A DNA stretch of 64,000 nucleotides from Algoriphagus sp. NG3 (GTDB lineage Bacteria; Bacteroidota; Bacteroidia; Cytophagales; Cyclobacteriaceae), in the NCBI RefSeq assembly GCF_034119865.1, contig NZ_CP139421.1, positions 1,922,001-1,986,000 of the forward strand, read 5' to 3'. Both the position numbers and the translations under genes were made by a program. Below the pieces are notes generated by a model that had not been told where the DNA came from, ran no database searches, and saw only the letters and a list, made by a program, of their open reading frames with translations. Below are positions 4,762-63,892 of the stretch, piece after piece (position 1 is the first letter of the stretch; each line of letters opens with the position of its first letter).

Positions 4762-5784
4762 CTAGCGCCAACCCAATTCTGGTGCAACGTACTTTAAAAT
4801 GGATTCAAGTACGTGAACATTATAATCCACACCCAAGGTATTTGGAATGGTCAATAAAAGGGTATCTGCTTCCTGTATGGCCTCATCCTGGGCCAATTCT
4901 TTAATCAATTGTTCTGGTTCTGCGGCATAACTTCTTCCGAAAATAGCCTGCTTATCTGCTTCTATCATCCCAACCTTATCCCTCCTATTGGCTTCCCCTC
5001 CGAAATAATACTTATCCTGATCGTTTACCAAAGCAAAGATCGACCTACTCACGGAAACTCTTGGTTCGCGCTGATGACCGGCTTTTATCCAAGCCTCCCT
5101 GTAAGCCCTGATCTGTTCTGCTTGCTGGATATGAAATGGCTTTCCGCTCTCGTCATATTTCAAGGTAGAGCTTTGGAGGTTCATGCCAATTTCTGCTGCC
5201 CAGACTGCGGTAGCATCTGAAGCAGATCCCCACCAAATACGGTCACGCAGTCCCTCTGCATGCGGTTCTAATCTCAATAAGCCTGGTGGGTTAGGAAACA
5301 TGGGGTTGGGATTTGGCTTTGCAAAGCCTACCCCTTTTAGTTTTTCAAAAAACTCTAGTGCTTTCTTTCTTCCCATATCGGCATCATTATCTCCTTCTTC
5401 CAGACTATAGCCGAAATATTTCCATCCGTCAATTACCTGCTCTGGCGAACCTCTGCTTACTCCTAACTGCAATCTACCTTCTGAAATCAAGTCGGCAGCT
5501 CCTGCATTTTCTATCATATACAACGGATTTTCATATCGCATATCAATAACACCAGTACCGATTTCAATTTTTTGGGTTTTAGCTCCTATAGCAGCCAACA
5601 AGGGAAATGGTGAAGCCAGTTGCTGGGCAAAATGATGTACCCTAAAATATGCCCCATCAATTCCAATTTCTTCTGCTGCCACTGCCAGATCAATGGACTG
5701 AAGCAAGGTGTCACTTGCGGTATTTGCATCATAAGCAGGATGCTCTGCCCAATGACCAAATGATAAGAATCCTATTTTTTTCAT
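4762..5784 (-). CDS. LLM-class flavin-dependent oxidoreductase (bacterial luciferase-like)
   Basis: From the ATG at 5784 the protein has 340 residues and starts MKKIGFLSFGHWAEHP, the usual first beta strand of the luciferase-like TIM barrel. Other family marks are AYFRVHHFAQQLASPFPLLAAI, IGTGVIDMRYENPLYMIE, and GRLQLGVSRGSPEQVIDGW, which corresponds to the flavin-binding region. The reading frame stays open upstream to an ATG at 5841, adding 19 residues that begin MIINTARFHV. That extension coincides with the repeated leader element (5785-5877) and is probably leader rather than enzyme. FMNH2-dependent monooxygenation or reduction is expected; the substrate is unknown. The FMO-like gene follows 12 bp downstream. 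Confidence 0.88.
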   Translation of the reverse strand: MKKIGFLSFGHWAEHPAYDANTASDTLLQSIDLAVAAEEIGIDGAYFRVHHFAQQLASPFPLLAAIGAKTQKIEIGTGVIDMRYENPLYMIENAGAADLISEGRLQLGVSRGSPEQVIDGWKYFGYSLEEGDNDADMGRKKALEFFEKLKGVGFAKPNPNPMFPNPPGLLRLEPHAEGLRDRIWWGSASDATAVWAAEIGMNLQSSTLKYDESGKPFHIQQAEQIRAYREAWIKAGHQREPRVSVSRSIFALVNDQDKYYFGGEANRRDKVGMIEADKQAIFGRSYAAEPEQLIKELAQDEAIQEADTLLLTIPNTLGVDYNVHVLESILKYVAPELGWR

Positions 5785-5877
5785 GTGTTTATAATTGTTT
5801 TTTTTAATGGTCACATGGAATCTCGCAGTGTTTATAATCATTCCAGTATGTGTCGCTTACGACATGCTCGATTTCAT
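5785..5877 (-). repeat. Leader element copy A (repeated 5' leader with short open frame)
   Basis: This copy abuts the LLM oxidoreductase start codon. Over about 95 bp it is closely similar to copy B (42906-42997) and more distantly to copy C (63667-63757). Reading toward the gene, it has a 6-codon frame MKSSMS-stop (5857-5877). Then comes an ATG at 5841 opening MIINTARFHVTIKKNN, which here runs in frame into the enzyme. Where copy B reads ACGCAA, this copy reads TCGTAA, which creates the early stop. Confidence 0.75.
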
Positions 5878-6224
5878 ATGATTATCCTTGTTTTTCTATG
5901 GATACCTGCATGCGTGTAGGCAACCTCAATGGTGTGTTAATCTCTACAAAGATTACACTTTAATAGGTATTACACTAAAGAAATTACAGCAACACTATTA
6001 AAGACAGAACTCAATCCAATCCAGTAATATATCATTTAATCTCATCATAACTCAAGTGGCATAAGAATATTGACTGTCTATTCATCTATTACCATGCCAC
6101 AACAAGAATCATCTGCTTATCAGATAATTACAACTATTATAGAGAATAAGTGTTTTCTAACATATTTCATTTTTCTAATATTTAAGAAATATACTACCAC
6201 ATACTTAAATAACCATATGTAAAA
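5878..6224. other. Non-coding stretch upstream of the leader
   Basis: This is AT-rich DNA between leader copy A and the TolC remnant. I see no open frame that looks coding and no strong hairpin. The promoter of the LLM/FMO operon should lie here; CTACAAAGATTA (minus strand TAATCTTTG, near 5934-5944) is close to the TAnnTTTG consensus but has one extra spacer base. Confidence 0.4.
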
Positions 6225-41948: not shown

Positions 41949-42905
41949 TTAACGCCAATATAAAGCTCCGCTCGCAGGCTGAACCGAATTCTCTCCATTG
42001 GAAATTACAGGGACAACCCCTTCGCTGTTTGGATAAATAGGATCAACATTATAAACTTTTCCATCAGCCGGAATAATCTTCAGATACCAGATAGCACCAA
42101 ATGCTCCAGTTCTGGTATAATCCGTGCCTACCAGCAAGTGCTGACCATCCGGAGAAAATACGGGTTGTACTTCCTGATCATTACTATCTGTAACCTGTAC
42201 AAAATCGCTTCCATCCATATTCATGAGATAGATGTGGTTATTGACTCTTACTGCTATTTTCTGTCCAGCTGGATCCACAGCAGGATCTCCCCAGCTTTCA
42301 TAATTCAGCTCTTTAACCAATGAGCCATTCTGATAAGGGGGATCTACTTTGATTAGAAAGTTTTTGTGAGTGATTAGTAGGGAATTTCCGGGCATCCATA
42401 TCACTTGTTCATGCAATTCAATTTTCTCTCCATCGATATCATAAATATGTGCTATTAGTTCACCGGAGGTATCCAGTATTACCACTCCCTCTTCATAGGT
42501 AGGTGAAATCACTACCAATGAATTATCCGGAGATAGATCGCCGGATTTGAATTTTGATCCTCCCTTCAGCGGCATATAGCTGAATTCCTTGATGATTTCT
42601 CCATCTTTTACATCTGTCATGGTAAAAGAGATTTTGTCTGAAAATACTTCTGGATTTTTGGATGTTAATAGAATTTGACCGTCGGGAGAAAGGCTCCAGC
42701 CATTTCTTTTTGAATCGCTGGGCAAAAACTCGCTCCTCACGCCAGTCTGGGTATTGATAGTCAGCGCTCCCTCTGTCGCCCAGTCAAAGTATATACTTCC
42801 AGAAAGATTTGTACCAACCGGCAAAATAGGTGATTCATCCTCCTTAGAACAGCTTGTTAAAAGTACTAGTAGTAGAGCGCTGAATATTTGAAGTATGTTT
42901 TTCAT
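41949..42905 (-). CDS. PD40/TolB-like beta-propeller lipoprotein
   Basis: The 318-residue protein has a lipobox LTSC (Cys about 19). It has propeller repeats of the WD40-like PD40 type: GWSLSPDGQILLTSKNPE, SGDLSPDNSLVVISP, IYLMNMDGSDFVQVTDS and VQPVFSPDGQHLLVG. It is likely anchored in the periplasm or on the surface; binding or scaffolding is the usual guess. The start ATG (42905) overlaps the stop of the leader frame in copy B of the repeated element, so its translation may be coupled to that peptide. Confidence 0.82.
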   Translation of the reverse strand: MKNILQIFSALLLVLLTSCSKEDESPILPVGTNLSGSIYFDWATEGALTINTQTGVRSEFLPSDSKRNGWSLSPDGQILLTSKNPEVFSDKISFTMTDVKDGEIIKEFSYMPLKGGSKFKSGDLSPDNSLVVISPTYEEGVVILDTSGELIAHIYDIDGEKIELHEQVIWMPGNSLLITHKNFLIKVDPPYQNGSLVKELNYESWGDPAVDPAGQKIAVRVNNHIYLMNMDGSDFVQVTDSNDQEVQPVFSPDGQHLLVGTDYTRTGAFGAIWYLKIIPADGKVYNVDPIYPNSEGVVPVISNGENSVQPASGALYWR

Positions 42906-42997
42906 CTGTTTATAATTTGATTTTTAACGGTCAGATGGAATCTCGCCAGGCGAATAATCATCCCTCTGTGTGTCGCTTGCGTCATGCTCGATTTCAT
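42902..42997 (-). CDS. Leader-peptide frame in copy B of the repeated element, 31 residues
   Basis: The frame starts MKSSMTQATHRG and continues MIIRLARFHLTVKNQIINR. Its TGA (42902-42904) overlaps the ATG of the lipoprotein gene, an arrangement typical of translational coupling. An internal ATG at 42961 begins the MII-ARFH core, which is also present in copies A and C. Translation is not proven. Confidence 0.45.
   Translation of the reverse strand: MKSSMTQATHRGMIIRLARFHLTVKNQIINR
42906..42997 (-). repeat. Leader element copy B
   Basis: This is the longest open version of the repeated leader. It is nearly collinear with copy A: both contain ATGAAATCGAGCATG, then GCGACACA, ATGATTAT, GCGAGATTCCAT and TGACC before an A/T-rich tail that ends at the start codon. 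A small hairpin AGATTCCATCT and a CGCCTGGCG stem lie in the middle; neither is fully conserved in copies A or C. Confidence 0.75.
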
Positions 42998-43448
42998 GTG
43001 TGTTTTTTTATTCCCAACTTCACGATCAAAAGTCAGGTTAGATTTTACCAATAATCCAATCATAACTCTTTGGCCCACGTGAGGCCAGCTTCTTCAAGTC
43101 TTTTGGTAGGCTGAATATGTGTTGTCAACTGCCATATCCTGCCGAGACACATAAAGAGGATTAACATCAGTTGATTTGATCCAAAATTAGGGTCTAGCAA
43201 GGAGGCGGTCAATCCACGAAAACAAGGATATTTACTATCATAATTTAAAAAAAACAATCTCAGGTTTCTTCTGTTTTCATCAAAGGGGAAAGCTATTAAA
43301 ATTGAATTTGGGGGTCATATCAAACACTCTATCCAAGTGAATCATTGTCATGCTACCTGCCTCCATGTTAAAAGCCCCAACGAGAATGATTGGCTCAACC
43401 TCACTTTTGAAATATTCAGTAATTGCCCGAAAAGTTCATAAAACGAAA
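42998..43448. other. Unassigned stretch, possibly holding decayed coding sequence
   Basis: A 65-codon frame on the minus strand (43060-43257) ends RLEEAGLTWAKEL, and another frame over the same DNA reads TDVNPLYVSRQDMAVDNTYS. The mix of coding-like pieces in different frames suggests a frameshifted remnant, but I recognise no family. The promoter of the PD40 lipoprotein should lie at its left end. Confidence 0.3.
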
Positions 43449-58370: not shown

Positions 58371-59294
58371 TCATGAAAAATGTGGTAATATATTTTCTCC
58401 AATTTCTTCTATCACTTCCTCCGCTGGTCTTGAACCATATTTTAAATTTAAGATTACGTGATTAACACCATATGATTCTAACAATCTCAAATGCGTATAT
58501 AAATATTCCGTCCCCGATTTTATCCCCAAATGGATTGGGGTTGGTCTTGCCTTAGGATCTTTCGTTAAATCAACGTACAACGATTGCATAAATGGTTTCC
58601 AATCTGAATTAATCCCTTTTAATGCATCTCGCCATTGTTGCATTACAATAGGAAGTGTTTTGAAATCTCTTGGATAATACAACCAACCATCTGAATGTTC
58701 AGCAATCCATTCCAAGGATTGTCCAGAATGCCCAGTTATTAACATTGGCGTTTTTTTGTAATACTTCGGCACGAGATCTATGGCTCCATTGGTTTTGCCA
58801 TAATATTTTGAAGAGTAGGCTGGGAAATCACCTTGCAATGCTTTGATATAAAAATAGCTATCTCTGAAAAGTTCGGACTTATCCGCTAAATTTTGATTGA
58901 ATGCAGGATATTCTATGGGCCGATCACCTGAAGCTACACCTAAAACCAATCGTTCATTTGATAGGATTTGAAGGCTATTAATTGATTTTGCAGTATGAAC
59001 TGGATGACGTAACGGTAAAATTATACTTGCCGAGCCTAAAGCAATCTTACTTGTATGGTTCATAATATGTGTCATATAAATCCAAGGGTCATACAATTGC
59101 CCAGCATCACCAAATGATGGGTCATTGAACGGAACATCTCTAAACCAAAGTGCTTTAAAACCTAATTCCTCTACTCGTTTGGCAAGTTTTTCTTGGTTTT
59201 CCATTTTCGCAACTGAACCACTGTATGCCTCAATAGGAAATATAAGACCTAATGTCAACTTACCTTTGTTTGCTATCTTCTTAAGAGTGCTCAT
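58371..59294 (-). CDS. LLM-class flavin-dependent oxidoreductase (BA3436-type luciferase-like)
   Basis: The 307-residue protein has the luciferase-like barrel: LTLGLIFPIEAYSG, FKALWFRDVPFNDP, IALGSASIILPLRHPVHTAK, ERLVLGVASGDRPIEYPAFN and HSDGWLYYPRD. The DVPF and GDRP(I/E)EYPAF blocks mark the TIGR03571-like subgroup, which is distinct from the LLM enzyme at 4762-5784. FMN-dependent oxidation is expected, substrate unknown. It is monocistronic. Confidence 0.88.
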   Translation of the reverse strand: MSTLKKIANKGKLTLGLIFPIEAYSGSVAKMENQEKLAKRVEELGFKALWFRDVPFNDPSFGDAGQLYDPWIYMTHIMNHTSKIALGSASIILPLRHPVHTAKSINSLQILSNERLVLGVASGDRPIEYPAFNQNLADKSELFRDSYFYIKALQGDFPAYSSKYYGKTNGAIDLVPKYYKKTPMLITGHSGQSLEWIAEHSDGWLYYPRDFKTLPIVMQQWRDALKGINSDWKPFMQSLYVDLTKDPKARPTPIHLGIKSGTEYLYTHLRLLESYGVNHVILNLKYGSRPAEEVIEEIGENILPHFS

Positions 59295-60634: not shown

Positions 60635-62008
60635 TTAATCTATCCAAAGAGATTTAATGTTGACGAATTCGCGGATCCCATACCCGGAAAGTTCCCTTCC
60701 ATACCCGCTATTCTTAATTCCACCGAAGGGCAACCTAGGATCTGAAGTCACCAATTTATTTACAAAGCAACTCCCGGCTTCAAGCTGCAACGCCACTTTT
60801 TCACCGCGTTCCCTATCTGATGTGATCACTCCCGATCCTAAACCAAATTGAGAATTATTGGCAAGTGCAATGGCTTCATCTTCATCGGTTGCCCGGATTA
60901 AAGAGGCTACCGAACCAAAAAGTTCGTTGTCAAAAGCTTCCATTCCAGGTTTCACATCTACTAAGATGGTAGCGGGGTAGTAAGCTCCCCTTCCTTCGGG
61001 GATTTTCCCTCCAAGTATAAGGCGGCCACCTTGCGCTATGGTTTTTGTGACTTGTTCGTGAATTTCATCGCGCAAATCTAACCTTGCCATAGGACCATAA
61101 TAGGTAGATTCGTCCATAGGATCCCCCATTTTTGCTTGGCGCATCTTTTTGACAAAGCGTTCAAGGAAACTATCATAAATAGCATCGAGGACTACAAAAC
61201 GTTTGGCCGCAATACAGGTTTGCCCGTTGTTCTGTAATCTTCCGAATGTAGCCAGATCGGTCGCTTCTTCGAGGTCCGCATCATCCAAAACAATATAGGC
61301 ATCGCTCCCACCAAGTTCTAAAACGGTTTTCTTCAAATTGGCTCCGGCAACAGTTGCAACCGAGCGTCCTGCAGGATCGCTTCCTGTAAGCGTAACCGCT
61401 ACGATATTCTTATCTTCTATGACATCTTTTACATTGCCTGCATTTATATTCAGATTGGTAAATATGCCTTCGGGAAATCCCGCTTTCCTGAAAGCATCTT
61501 CCAGAGCAAATGCACTTCCCTGCACATTGGAGGCATGTTTTAACACTCCAGTATTTCCTGCCATTAAAGCAGGTGCAGCAAAACGAACCACTTGGTAAAA
61601 CGGGAAATTCCACGGCATTACAGCCAGAATGACTCCCATGGGTTGAAAAGTAACATAACTCTTGTGCGCTTCGGTGTCCACTATCTCCTTTCCAAGTAAA
61701 CTTTCCGAATTATCCGCATAGAACCGGCATACCCAGGCACATTTTTCTATTTCCTTTCTAGCCTGTCCAATCGTTTTACCCATTTCTGTAGTAGTCAATT
61801 GGGCGTATTCCTCTTTGCCTGAATCGAACAAGTCGGCAAGCGCATACATTAGCTTAGAACGTTCCGCAAAGCTGGTTTCCTTCCAGGAAATATAAGCTTC
61901 CTTAGCCAAAGCGATCTTTTCTTTAGCTTTGGAAATAGCTATCCTTTCGTATTCGGCCACAGTTTCCCCGTTTACAGGGTTAATCGTCATTGCTTTACTC
62001 ATGATCAT
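60635..62008 (-). CDS. NAD(P)-dependent aldehyde dehydrogenase (succinate-semialdehyde dehydrogenase-like)
   Basis: The 457-residue protein has the ALDH signatures VILAVMPWNFPFYQVVRFAA, LTGSDPAGRSVA, the general-base Glu in TVLELGGSDAYIVLDDADLE and the catalytic Cys in LQNNGQTCIAAKRFVV. The short length and the NPVNGETVAEYERI start match the YneI/GabD2 group. Its ATG overlaps the TGA region of the upstream synthase by 4 bp (62005-62008), so the two are coupled. Confidence 0.93.
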   Translation of the reverse strand: MIMSKAMTINPVNGETVAEYERIAISKAKEKIALAKEAYISWKETSFAERSKLMYALADLFDSGKEEYAQLTTTEMGKTIGQARKEIEKCAWVCRFYADNSESLLGKEIVDTEAHKSYVTFQPMGVILAVMPWNFPFYQVVRFAAPALMAGNTGVLKHASNVQGSAFALEDAFRKAGFPEGIFTNLNINAGNVKDVIEDKNIVAVTLTGSDPAGRSVATVAGANLKKTVLELGGSDAYIVLDDADLEEATDLATFGRLQNNGQTCIAAKRFVVLDAIYDSFLERFVKKMRQAKMGDPMDESTYYGPMARLDLRDEIHEQVTKTIAQGGRLILGGKIPEGRGAYYPATILVDVKPGMEAFDNELFGSVASLIRATDEDEAIALANNSQFGLGSGVITSDRERGEKVALQLEAGSCFVNKLVTSDPRLPFGGIKNSGYGRELSGYGIREFVNIKSLWID

Positions 62009-63666
62009 GTTTTTTTAGGTTCACTGGAATATTCCTTAATCAATACATTTAAAATTTCATGGTTAAGAGAGTAATCGACAGCTAAATCGATAAGCTGTAC
62101 CCCTTTGGCACTCAAAGCATGTTTCAGTACTTGTCGAAACTCATCTACTGATTCCGGCCGATATCCTTTTGCCCCGAAACTTTCGGCATATTTTACAAAG
62201 TCCGGATTGCCGTAATCCAAACCATAATTTACAAATCCGAGATCCTGTTGCTTCCATTGTATCATTCCATAGGCATTGTCATTTAGGATAATGACTACCA
62301 AATCTAGTTGCAGGCGTATAGCGGTTTCCAATTCCTGAGAATTCATCATAAAACCTCCATCTCCGTTAACGGATATTACTTTTTTATCAGGATCCAACAT
62401 TTTTGCCATCATCGCTGAGGGAAGGCCTGCCCCCATCGTAGCCAATGCATTATCGAGTAGCAAGCTGTTTTGTACATAGGCTGGATAGTTACGTGCAAAC
62501 CATATCTTGTACATTCCATTATCTAAAGTTATAATCCCGTCGTCAGGGAGAGTATTTCTGACAATATTCACCACACGCTGGGGTAAAACCGGAAAACGAT
62601 TGTCGTTTCCGTACTTTGCCAAGTGCGTCATAACGTTTTCTTTTATTTTCAGAAAAAAATCGGTGTTCCAGCTATTGGCATTGGGCTTTAAAGCTTCGGT
62701 CAATTCCAAAACACTGTTTGCAATATCTCCGATAACATTCAATTGGGGAAAATAGACTTCGTCTATCTCGGCAGGAAAAAAATTGAGATGGATAACCTTA
62801 CGTTTGTCCTCTTTCCGCATGAAAAAAGGTGGCTTTTCAATAGTATCGTGGCCTACGTTGATTATCAGGTCAGATTCGTTAATCGCATCATGCAAAAAGT
62901 CGTAATTGGACAATGCAGCTGTTCCCAAGTATAATTGATGGCGTTCATCTATGATCCCTTTTCCCATTTGTGTGTTGAAAAAAGGAATACCTATAGAATC
63001 AACAAAAGCTGACAATGCCATACTGGCTCTTTTCCTATTGGCTCCTGCCCCTATGAGCAAGAGAGGTTTGCTGGCTTCTTTGATCAGTTCTGCTGCCTGT
63101 TCAATTGCATCTTTCCCTGCATATGGAATTTTCCAATCTACCACATCAAATATCCTCGGATTATCCACCTCTTCGGCAGCTATATCCTCTGGCAGTTCGA
63201 TATGTGTCGCTCCCGGCCTTTCTTCCTGTGCCAGCCGAAATGCCTCTCTGACTATAGAAGGGATATGTGAGCTATGGGTGACCTGTTTGGTGTACTTGGT
63301 AAGCGAGTGCATCATTTTGACCACATCGATGATCTGAAATTTCCCCTGTTTACTCTTTTTGATTGGCTTCTGCCCTGTAATAATAACAAGTGGCATAGCA
63401 CCTAATTGAGCATAAGCTGCCGGGGTCACCAGATTGGTTGCCCCCGGCCCTAGGGTAGAGAGACAAACTCCCGCTTTGCCTGTTAACCTACCGTAAGTCG
63501 AAGCCATGAATCCCGCTCCCTGCTCATGCCGGTTAAGAATCAACTCTATTTTCTCTGATTTCCTGATAGATTCAAGCAAATCAAGGTTTTCTTCACCAGG
63601 CAGTCCAAAAACATACTCCACACCTTCATTCTCTAAGGCCTTAATAAATAAATCTGATGCTTTCAT
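62005..63666 (-). CDS. Thiamine-diphosphate enzyme, acetolactate-synthase large-subunit-like
   Basis: The 553-residue protein has all three TPP-enzyme domains: the catalytic Glu region VFGLPGEENLDLLESI with RHEQGAGFMASTYGRLTGK, the central FAD/ADP-like domain (LLIGAGANRKRAS), and the C-terminal TPP motif VNGDGGFMMNSQE to LNDNAYGMIQWKQ. No regulatory ACT small subunit is adjacent and no other ilv gene is seen, so a catabolic or aldehyde-forming role with the coupled aldehyde dehydrogenase is more likely than branched-chain synthesis. Leader element copy C abuts its start codon. Confidence 0.9.
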   Translation of the reverse strand: MKASDLFIKALENEGVEYVFGLPGEENLDLLESIRKSEKIELILNRHEQGAGFMASTYGRLTGKAGVCLSTLGPGATNLVTPAAYAQLGAMPLVIITGQKPIKKSKQGKFQIIDVVKMMHSLTKYTKQVTHSSHIPSIVREAFRLAQEERPGATHIELPEDIAAEEVDNPRIFDVVDWKIPYAGKDAIEQAAELIKEASKPLLLIGAGANRKRASMALSAFVDSIGIPFFNTQMGKGIIDERHQLYLGTAALSNYDFLHDAINESDLIINVGHDTIEKPPFFMRKEDKRKVIHLNFFPAEIDEVYFPQLNVIGDIANSVLELTEALKPNANSWNTDFFLKIKENVMTHLAKYGNDNRFPVLPQRVVNIVRNTLPDDGIITLDNGMYKIWFARNYPAYVQNSLLLDNALATMGAGLPSAMMAKMLDPDKKVISVNGDGGFMMNSQELETAIRLQLDLVVIILNDNAYGMIQWKQQDLGFVNYGLDYGNPDFVKYAESFGAKGYRPESVDEFRQVLKHALSAKGVQLIDLAVDYSLNHEILNVLIKEYSSEPKKT

Positions 63667-63757
63667 CTTTTTATGTTTTGTTTTTTATTGCCAATGGATT
63701 CTAGCAAATACTATAATCATCCCTGTGTGTGGCTTCTGACACGTTGAAATTTATATG
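63667..63757 (-). repeat. Leader element copy C
   Basis: This is the most diverged copy. It keeps the order of conserved blocks seen in A and B (CACACA, GGGATGATTAT, GCTAGAATCCAT, A/T-rich tail ending at the start codon). It encodes MIIVFARIHWQ-stop (63685-63720), which shares the M-I-I-x-x-A-R-[FI]-H core. The upstream MKSSM part is lost. Confidence 0.6.
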
Positions 63758-63892
63758 TTTATAATAGTTCTTCGAGGTCAAATCCCTTATCACATAGTGG
63801 CTTCTTTCTATTTAAAACATGGATTGAAATTCATAAGCCATTAAAAGAAAAAGCTATTGCATAAATTTCCAACGCATATTATTTAGAAACAT

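Follow-up and report, generated by a model that had tools for sequence, protein, structure and literature searches.

The IS200/IS605 elements and the REP/RAYT palindromes work through a folded single strand whose internal sequence is complementary to a flank and to an end, and their action is strand-specific. There are also short inserts in coding sequence, namely the byps of Magnusiomyces mitochondria and the insert of T4 gene 60, which are flanked by repeated codons and are made harmless at translation. Riboswitches that control translation form alternative helices that could hide or free a start codon, and the Bacteroidota, in which the present element is found, mostly lack Shine-Dalgarno signals. 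Bacterial MITEs, such as that of Porphyromonas gingivalis (PMC4596501) and MITEAba12 (PMC6382973), are described as small, non-autonomous and present in many copies. The Flavo-1 RNA motif of the Flavobacteriaceae is reported to have matches in sense or antisense orientation, and many of these lie outside transcribed regions (PMC9723704).

The element described here was recognised in a window of 64,000 nucleotides, by which we mean the whole stretch of DNA that was analysed (positions 1922001-1986000 of a 5.89-Mb genome in one contig). The best explanation overall, to which we assign a probability of roughly 0.74, is that it is a non-autonomous, mobile element of ~88 bp (5'-ATCGAGC ... CANA-3') with a conserved single-strand fold. 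An earlier note had pointed to three copies of a leader at 5785-5877, 42906-42997 and about 63667-63757, and sequence comparison finds these copies to be real and alignable. All three lie on the minus strand, and each precedes the ATG (5784, 42905 and 63666) of a minus-strand ORF. The genes behind them are unrelated, as had been claimed: the first product matches Pfam Bac_luciferase, the second has no Pfam match and the third is a three-domain TPP enzyme. The note was also right that the dispersed leader adjoining start codons, rather than the gene, is the conserved unit, and that a reading frame M-I-I-x-x-A-R-[FI]-H is present in all three copies. Its statement that the leader ends at an ATG holds in that the repeat abuts the start codon, but the ATG itself belongs to the repeat, and the conserved unit runs from a left NTGAA through the right ATG(AA). 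Like the note, which could match the leader to no known class, we obtained no Rfam match above the gathering thresholds in the window, and an Rfam scan of 10 loci at E<=1 gave one weak match located away from the element.

Copies were collected with a sequence-only covariance model, R1, which was built from 29 copies (alignment A3). The three window copies were in this training alignment, and thus their E values of 1.9e-30, 4e-24 and 1.5e-15 do not constitute an independent test. Copy 1 (ATCGAGC...CACA) occupies 5784..5872 on the minus strand (R1 match 5779-5871, E 4e-24). Its flanking TGAA sequences are at 5873-5876 on the left and 5780-5783 on the right, with boundaries set by analogy with the empty sites of other copies. 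By the same analogy and from the sequence, the left ATG at 5875..5877 (minus), followed by the TGAA target, is presumed to be the former start of the gene. The right ATGAA at 5780..5784 (minus) provides the new start codon of the LLM (Bac_luciferase) gene at 4762-5784, for which no empty site was found among the relatives compared. There is a weak right-end-like remnant just upstream of copy 1 (5872..5906, minus; R1 E 0.0089) that is possibly an older tandem neighbour. The window contains another Bac_luciferase (LLM) gene at 58371-59294, and only the gene at 4762-5784 carries the element.

Copy 2 (ATCGAGC...CAGA) occupies 42905..42992 on the minus strand (R1 match 42900-43001, E 1.9e-30; in the training set) and is flanked by TGAA at 42993-42996 on the left and 42901-42904 on the right. 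The left arm of helix P1 (ATGAAATCGAGCA, 42985..42997, minus) includes the left start codon and pairs with 42935-42947. Hairpin P2 (42971..42984, minus) has one mismatch in copy 2 itself and exhibits A-U/U-A and G-C/U-A covariation in the family. A shared pairing segment (GGCGAGATTCCATCTG, 42932..42947, minus) forms both the right arm of P1 and the left arm of P3. The right arm of P3, CAGATG (42903..42908, minus), pairs with CATCTG and holds the new start codon; covariation at the position pair 70-98 supports this pairing. A short upstream ORF (uORF; MKSSMTQATHRGMIIRLARFHLTVKNQIINR, 42902..42997, minus) ends in a TGA that overlaps the new ATG, and this reading frame is without detectable coding constraint in the family. 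The host gene (41949..42905, minus), which the note took for a PD40 lipoprotein, has no Pfam match and gave no match in 10 relatives.

Copy 3 (63666..63754, minus; R1 match 63661-63745, E 1.5e-15, in the training set) is degenerate, its left start having decayed to ATA and its left boundary being approximate. It precedes a gene for a TPP-dependent enzyme at 62005..63666 (minus). A very weak right-end-like stretch upstream of it (63750-63793, minus; R1 E 0.17) could be an older tandem neighbour or a chance match.

The three copies belong to a large family. A plain blastn search with copy 2 against its own genome returned 53 matches at E<=10; apart from copy 2 itself, the best of them had E values of 1e-40 and 1.8e-33. 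With R1 there are 161 matches in this genome at E<=10, and the 129 at E<=1.6e-5 were used for the anatomy, the ORF-start counts and the first orthologue comparison given below. With the own genome included throughout, matches are present in 32 of 58 genomes of relatives; in the taxonomic family they extend to 99 of 196 genomes, which represent 48 of 84 genera, and across the phylum to 16 of 395 genomes. The last figure comprises 7 genomes of the same family and 9 of other families, where best E values range from 4e-10 to 8e-5 and several genomes have single near-threshold matches. Copy numbers per genome in these three surveys, in which up to 68, 20 and 10 candidates per genome were scored, respectively, are to be read as 'at least'. 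The genome of the window is taken to belong to the Cyclobacteriaceae, close to Algoriphagus. Named hosts recovered with an exact pattern are Algoriphagus, Lunatibacter and Pleomorphovibrio, and one exact pattern searched against IMG/VR for viral carriage gave 0 matches. The search of the genome and its relatives that the note had proposed returns neither matches that are mostly within genes nor only the three original copies. At 836452, 836744 and 837204 of the own genome, three nearby copies precede similar short ORFs starting MKPSFKQVM, which looks as if gene start and element were duplicated as a unit.

Comparison of orthologous genes reveals that the element moves: 42 of 56 sites are empty, where 'empty' is defined as no element in the 150 nt before the start. 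A first comparison of 6 genes in 5 genomes gave 4 filled and 26 empty sites, with truA of G029, whose start is poorly placed (5 of 10 residues), counted as empty. A second comparison, with 15 query genes in 2 genomes, provided 23 usable comparisons, of which 7 were filled and 16 empty; it excludes two rows for gene 409060 (non-orthologous placement), the three weakest matches (L265-L267) and gene 3897624, which has no usable orthologue. For the LLM and TPP genes of the window, all 3 available comparisons were filled and 0 were empty, other TPP matches (34-41% identity) being taken as paralogues and left out. Family searches identified seven host genes: those for succinate-CoA ligase, an LptG-like protein, QueA, AroQ, CoaD, TruA and aspartate kinase. 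NCBIfam cut-offs are exceeded for sucC, queA, aroQ, coaD and truA, and that of a subfamily model for aspartate kinase, and the LptG-like protein matches LptG below the cut-off. The remaining host genes were judged from their N-termini only.

The junctions are precise. The empty site of sucC reads ...aatttccagaga-ATGAATATTCAC and its filled counterpart reads ...aatttccaagagg-ATGAAATCGAGC...ACACAC-ATGAATATTCAC, such that nothing is lost and the native 5' region stays intact. Clean junctions are also found at the lptG-like gene, queA, aroQ, 1571477, 5048149, 5284139, 5560795 and 459750, and at coaD and some others the upstream sequence is too diverged for a junction to show. The gene aroQ natively starts with TTGAAA, and in its filled form (G000, the own genome, and G018) the left codon is TTG and the right one is ATG. 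In truA, the insertion point is a GTGAAA slightly within the native start of the gene, with GTG now to the left of the copy and ATG to its right. At clean sites, then, the element inserts at the NTGAA start of a gene, leaving the native start behind and supplying a new ATG at its right end. Pairing with position 70 is seen for the base preceding the right ATG in 93 of 119 copies and for its counterpart at the left ATG in 37 of 71, as would fit a right CANA that is part of the element and a left flank that is part of the host. The note's suggestion of spread by recombination was sound insofar as the unit has moved, and a more accurate description would be precise insertion at start codons.

At several genes, the copies located at one and the same start are visibly different from species to species (36650, 3162213, 3501780, 4185974 and the LLM and TPP genes, by eye). 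In G019 and G014, the LLM gene carries at this start codon a copy unlike that of the window, and the G019 orthologue of the window TPP gene has other element classes at the same start. Thus, there is repeated docking or replacement at individual starts. Copies also occur in arrays, with 16 of the 129 matches followed by another copy and 113 array-terminal. Only 2 of 15 adjacent pairs exceed 90% identity, which argues against tandem duplication as the source of the arrays, and 13 are at <=82%, one of them probably being a split single copy. Since most adjacent pairs are dissimilar, the arrays appear to have arisen mostly from separate insertions.

The order of features along the gene is NTGAA, ATCGAGC, hairpin P2, ACACA..GGRATGATTAT and a variable loop, followed by GCGAGATTCCATNTG RCC, an A-rich stretch, ATTATAAACAN and then ATGAA. 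Measured between its TGAA repeats, the insert has a length of 87 or 88 nt in most simple copies (32 of 47). Terminal inverted repeats are absent, in that the terminal 14 nt of the 47 simple copies have a mean best identity of 0.40 to the reverse complement of the other end, compared with 0.42 after shuffling. Both start codons are recognised in 76 copies, and 29 of these are longer. Among the matches listed, many of the longer copies contain further palindromes, of GCCTGCCTACCGGACAGGCAGGC and TCCCGAATCAAGTTCGGGACAGGC types, that are nested within the element at a small number of places and look like separate REP-like families (for example, G000:C1:409060-409180, 2337345-2337480 and 138099-138241). 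The left codon was read in 76 of the 129 copies as ATG (69), TTG (4), GTG (2) or CTG (1), although by construction only NTG was admitted and the right codon was fixed as ATGA. Among the matches listed there is a class B, in which both P1 arms are replaced (ATGAAATGCCC / GGGCATTCC), and a class C with another pair. Distant members swap their P1 arms as well: AAACGCCC/GGGCGTT in G537, AAACATCC/GGATGTT in G440 and AAATACCC/GGGTATT in G019.

Alignments for the evaluation of structure were built with the sequence-only model, and therefore they do not lean toward any fold. The own-genome alignment (A4) has 126 matches from 100 of 107 loci (L172, L173 and L175-L179 were left out), and that of the relatives (A5) has 76 matches from 85 sources. 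For P1 and P2 together, 87.4% of cells are paired in own copies versus 82.3% after shuffling, and 89.7% versus 84.5% in relatives; double-changed cells number 76 versus 40 and 42 versus 18. For P3, the corresponding values are 92.9% versus 86.8% in own copies and 94.9% versus 88.6% in relatives, with 51 versus 20 and 22 versus 6 double-changed cells. None of 500 shuffles reaches the observed cell percentages, double-changed cells or covariation score, and slid versions of the helices score lower; neither the number of pairs nor that of pair types with double changes clearly exceeds the shuffled values. The compensatory base-pair check that the note had called for thus comes out in support of the fold. 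Position pair 70-98 is a standard pair in 93 of 119 own copies and in 60 of 72 copies from relatives, with GC, AU and CG all frequent. Kinship can inflate covariation, but without a fold it is difficult to account for the double changes at 70-98 and for the exchange of both P1 arms.

The segment GATTCCATNTG has two alternative partners, namely the left end, in P1, and CANATG at the new start codon, in P3. An A-C mismatch and a tandem GA persist in P1, and in P3 the same C again faces an A. There is a third helix, P4 (GGGAT/ATTCC), that was counted without controls. Because P1, P3 and P4 share one segment, they are mutually exclusive. When the 3' segment is folded in isolation, with the competing 5' part omitted, the AUG has a mean pairing probability of 0.91 (49 start-codon copies with intact TTCCATNTG). 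A further helix, P5, was rejected, being weak at the variable pair 38-70 (standard in 49 of 118 and 23 of 68). Minimum free energy folding of single window copies is little informative (z of -2.10, -0.47 and -0.23).

Insertion is nearly always in the sense orientation, at an NTGAA, and mostly at the start codon of a gene. Among the 113 array-terminal copies, 90 are at the start of an ORF, 79 of which begin with ATGAAA, and 23 are not; an ORF start was scored where an ORF of >=70 aa runs from an ATG near the end of the copy, a criterion with at least one doubtful case (773442). By greedy ORF calling, the background in the window consists of ATGAA at 18 gene starts and at 43 intergenic positions. 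The enrichment of 90 of 113 over 18 of 61 sites (~30%, the expectation from random survival) has a p of 4e-28, and for ATGAAA only it is 79 of 113 versus 18 of 36 (18 starts, 18 intergenic), with a p of 1.4e-5. An exact pattern that requires ATGAAA, and not a gene, has 22 matches in named genomes: 16 are at ORFs of >=100 aa or open to the end of the locus, 4 are followed by another copy and 2 fall in neither group. Therefore, 16 of the 18 non-tandem matches are at ORFs.

This bias could come from purging rather than from targeting. Perhaps an ordinary small transposon-derived repeat enters at any NTGAA, and both the start-codon and the sense bias arise purely from the loss of harmful insertions. 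The truA copy that entered just inside its gene is consistent with such a process, as are the 23 terminal copies off ORF starts, one of which (1716878) has both neighbours antisense, and a copy in G009 that opposes a gene with a Y1 transposase domain (Y1_Tnp). However, intergenic ATGAA sites in the window outnumber those at starts by 43 to 18 and insertion there should be mostly harmless, yet four-fifths of terminal copies are at starts. In addition, the nearest upstream gene of the 23 off-start copies is called in the sense orientation for 18 (a count made without control for operon structure), antisense for 3 (359009, 1179854 and 1716878) and not at all for 2. We consider purging as the sole cause to be doubtful, although it deserves serious attention.

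The preferred reading, that of a mobile element that docks at start codons, includes a putative guide: the internal TTCCAT is complementary to the ATG-x-AA at both element ends, although with a near-constant C-A mismatch against the target, and it may serve to recognise ATG-x-AA at the insertion site. The mobilising enzyme would act in trans. A more specific extension of this reading is that a class of such elements, spread through the Bacteroidota, evolved to use start codons as safe harbours, finding them by the TTCCAT guide and becoming nearly invisible because the ribosome is handed from the old start to the new one. The guide could perhaps act on the messenger or on DNA that becomes single-stranded where initiation takes place, and this would account for nearly all copies being in the sense orientation. 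We put this extended scenario forward as tentative and, on balance, improbable in its entirety.

The architecture also suggests how an insertion might be tolerated. Translation would begin at the old start under the native 5' region, and the ribosome would run through an upstream ORF of ~30 codons, usually stopping within about 30 nt of the new ATG. It would thereby open the P3 hairpin, which otherwise would block independent starts, and restart at the new ATG, such that expression stays under native control. Of the 47 simple copies, 36 have a uORF stop between -30 and +9 relative to the new ATG, as do 17 of the 29 longer ones, and the stop comes early in 21 of 76. The commonest stops in simple copies are at +1 (TGA inside ATGA, 16) and -7 (TAA, 11). 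Because frame openness equals the shuffled expectation and the codons are unconstrained, this relay is put forward as a plausible consequence of a sequence whose uORF carries no detectable selection, and not as a demonstrated selected function.

A different possibility, akin to the cis-regulatory leader considered in the note, is a dispersed cis-regulatory RNA, riboswitch-like or protein-bound, that exposes or hides the start codons of a large regulon and spreads because its host benefits from co-regulation. The covarying alternative helices P1 and P3 around the start codon, the pairing of the AUG in the isolated 3' segment, the occupation of the LLM gene in three species and the uniformly filled sites of the two window genes would all be compatible with this role. 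However, three-quarters of orthologous sites are empty, the host genes have no common theme, visibly different copies are found at the same start in different species and there is no Rfam match. As a regulon signal, the leader is thus unlikely, and this part of the note's interpretation is not sustained.

Still less probable is that the element is a passenger of the IS200/IS605 (Y1, HUH) type, which would move as a folded single strand, with the left TGAA belonging to the target and the right TGAA to the element. The absence of terminal inverted repeats, the ability of both ends to pair with one internal segment and the sense-strand bias are features that such a passenger would share. Evidence against it comes from a gene that we take to be trpF from a reading of its N-terminus. 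In G019, its target TGCA is found on both sides, including the C, and the right copy is therefore native; in G000, the left copy reads ATGGAA (TGGA). From trpF alone, in one genome, a 4-bp target duplication is suggested, which speaks against insertion without duplication, and TGAA sites are ambiguous in this respect.

Candidate mobilising enzymes likewise do not follow the element. Y1_Tnp is present in 21 of 22 genomes of the genus without tracking copy number, being absent from the copy-rich G014 (at least 74 matches) and present in the copy-poor G018, G021 and G025, and the Y1 transposase was thus set aside as mobiliser. A reverse transcriptase was set aside on the same grounds: RVT_1 occurs in 18 of 24 genomes irrespective of copy number, is absent from the copy-rich G022 and G230 and also from the copy-poor G021 and G025, and is present in G106, which has no element match. 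G106, a genome of the same family, carries six reverse transcriptase genes with identical scores and a seventh, probably a multi-copy intron. No gene-bearing (gene-length) version is found among the own-genome matches listed. A near-consensus copy in G009 (L215, 1933-2032, minus) lies antisense at the 3' end of the Y1 gene, whose ORF now runs into the copy, and with this placement it was rejected as a parent element.

Finally, a leader-peptide attenuator, in which a translated M-I-I-x-x-A-R-F-H peptide regulates the gene behind it, is very improbable: among indel-free copies the frame is open in 30 of 35 from the own genome and in 31 of 33 from relatives, its stops cluster at +1 and -7 in simple copies and its synonymous share is above that of the third frame (52/154 versus 17/190), but this openness equals the column-shuffled mean (30.0 own; 29.7 relatives), synonymous to nonsynonymous changes are 52/154 versus 57/134 in the next frame, mean entropies of the codon positions are 0.69, 0.55 and 0.63 with greater variation elsewhere than at the third position, and the frame is shifted by nested palindromes as well as by 1-nt indels (distances modulo 3 of 31, 27 and 18 among 76 copies), so that the codon-like substitution check proposed in the note goes against its own suggestion.

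If the preferred reading of a mobile element at start codons is true, the start codon itself serves a mobile element as its niche. The element precedes central genes, such as those for succinate-CoA ligase, CoaD and aspartate kinase, that presumably still work, and it would raise the question of how an insertion machinery finds translation starts. Its filled sites would allow reinitiation in Bacteroidota to be studied in a natural setting. At element sites, gene callers could set start codons wrongly or predict short ORFs that are spurious, and comparative studies of 5' UTRs could mistake the repeat for a regulon signal.

We found no description of the element among the open-licence papers searched, and one may have been printed elsewhere. 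MITEs share with it small size, non-autonomy, many copies and perhaps a short direct duplication. It differs from them by its absence of terminal inverted repeats, its location at start codons, a fold that pairs the interior with both ends and the lack of a parent transposon among the matches listed. The folded single strand, the internal complementarity to a flank or an end and the strand specificity are reminiscent of IS200/IS605 and REP/RAYT, whereas the target appears duplicated at trpF and there is no link to Y1 genes. Byps and T4 gene 60 interrupt coding sequence; in contrast, our element is located at the start codon, where a restart at the supplied ATG would suffice and no hop would be needed. 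The alternative helices recall riboswitches, but the sites turn over between species and the host genes are without theme. Flavo-1 is similar in being a widespread structured motif of Bacteroidota without clear function, and different in that our element abuts start codons and matched no Rfam family (PMC9723704). The element could be assigned neither to the MITEs nor to IS200/IS605 passengers, Rfam families, riboswitch regulons, leader peptides or elements driven by a reverse transcriptase. If every small non-autonomous repeat were counted as one kind, it would be a variant of that kind. Judged against the individual systems, it is a large mobile family, matched to no known one, that docks at start codons, carries a covarying fold and may employ a guide and a translational relay.
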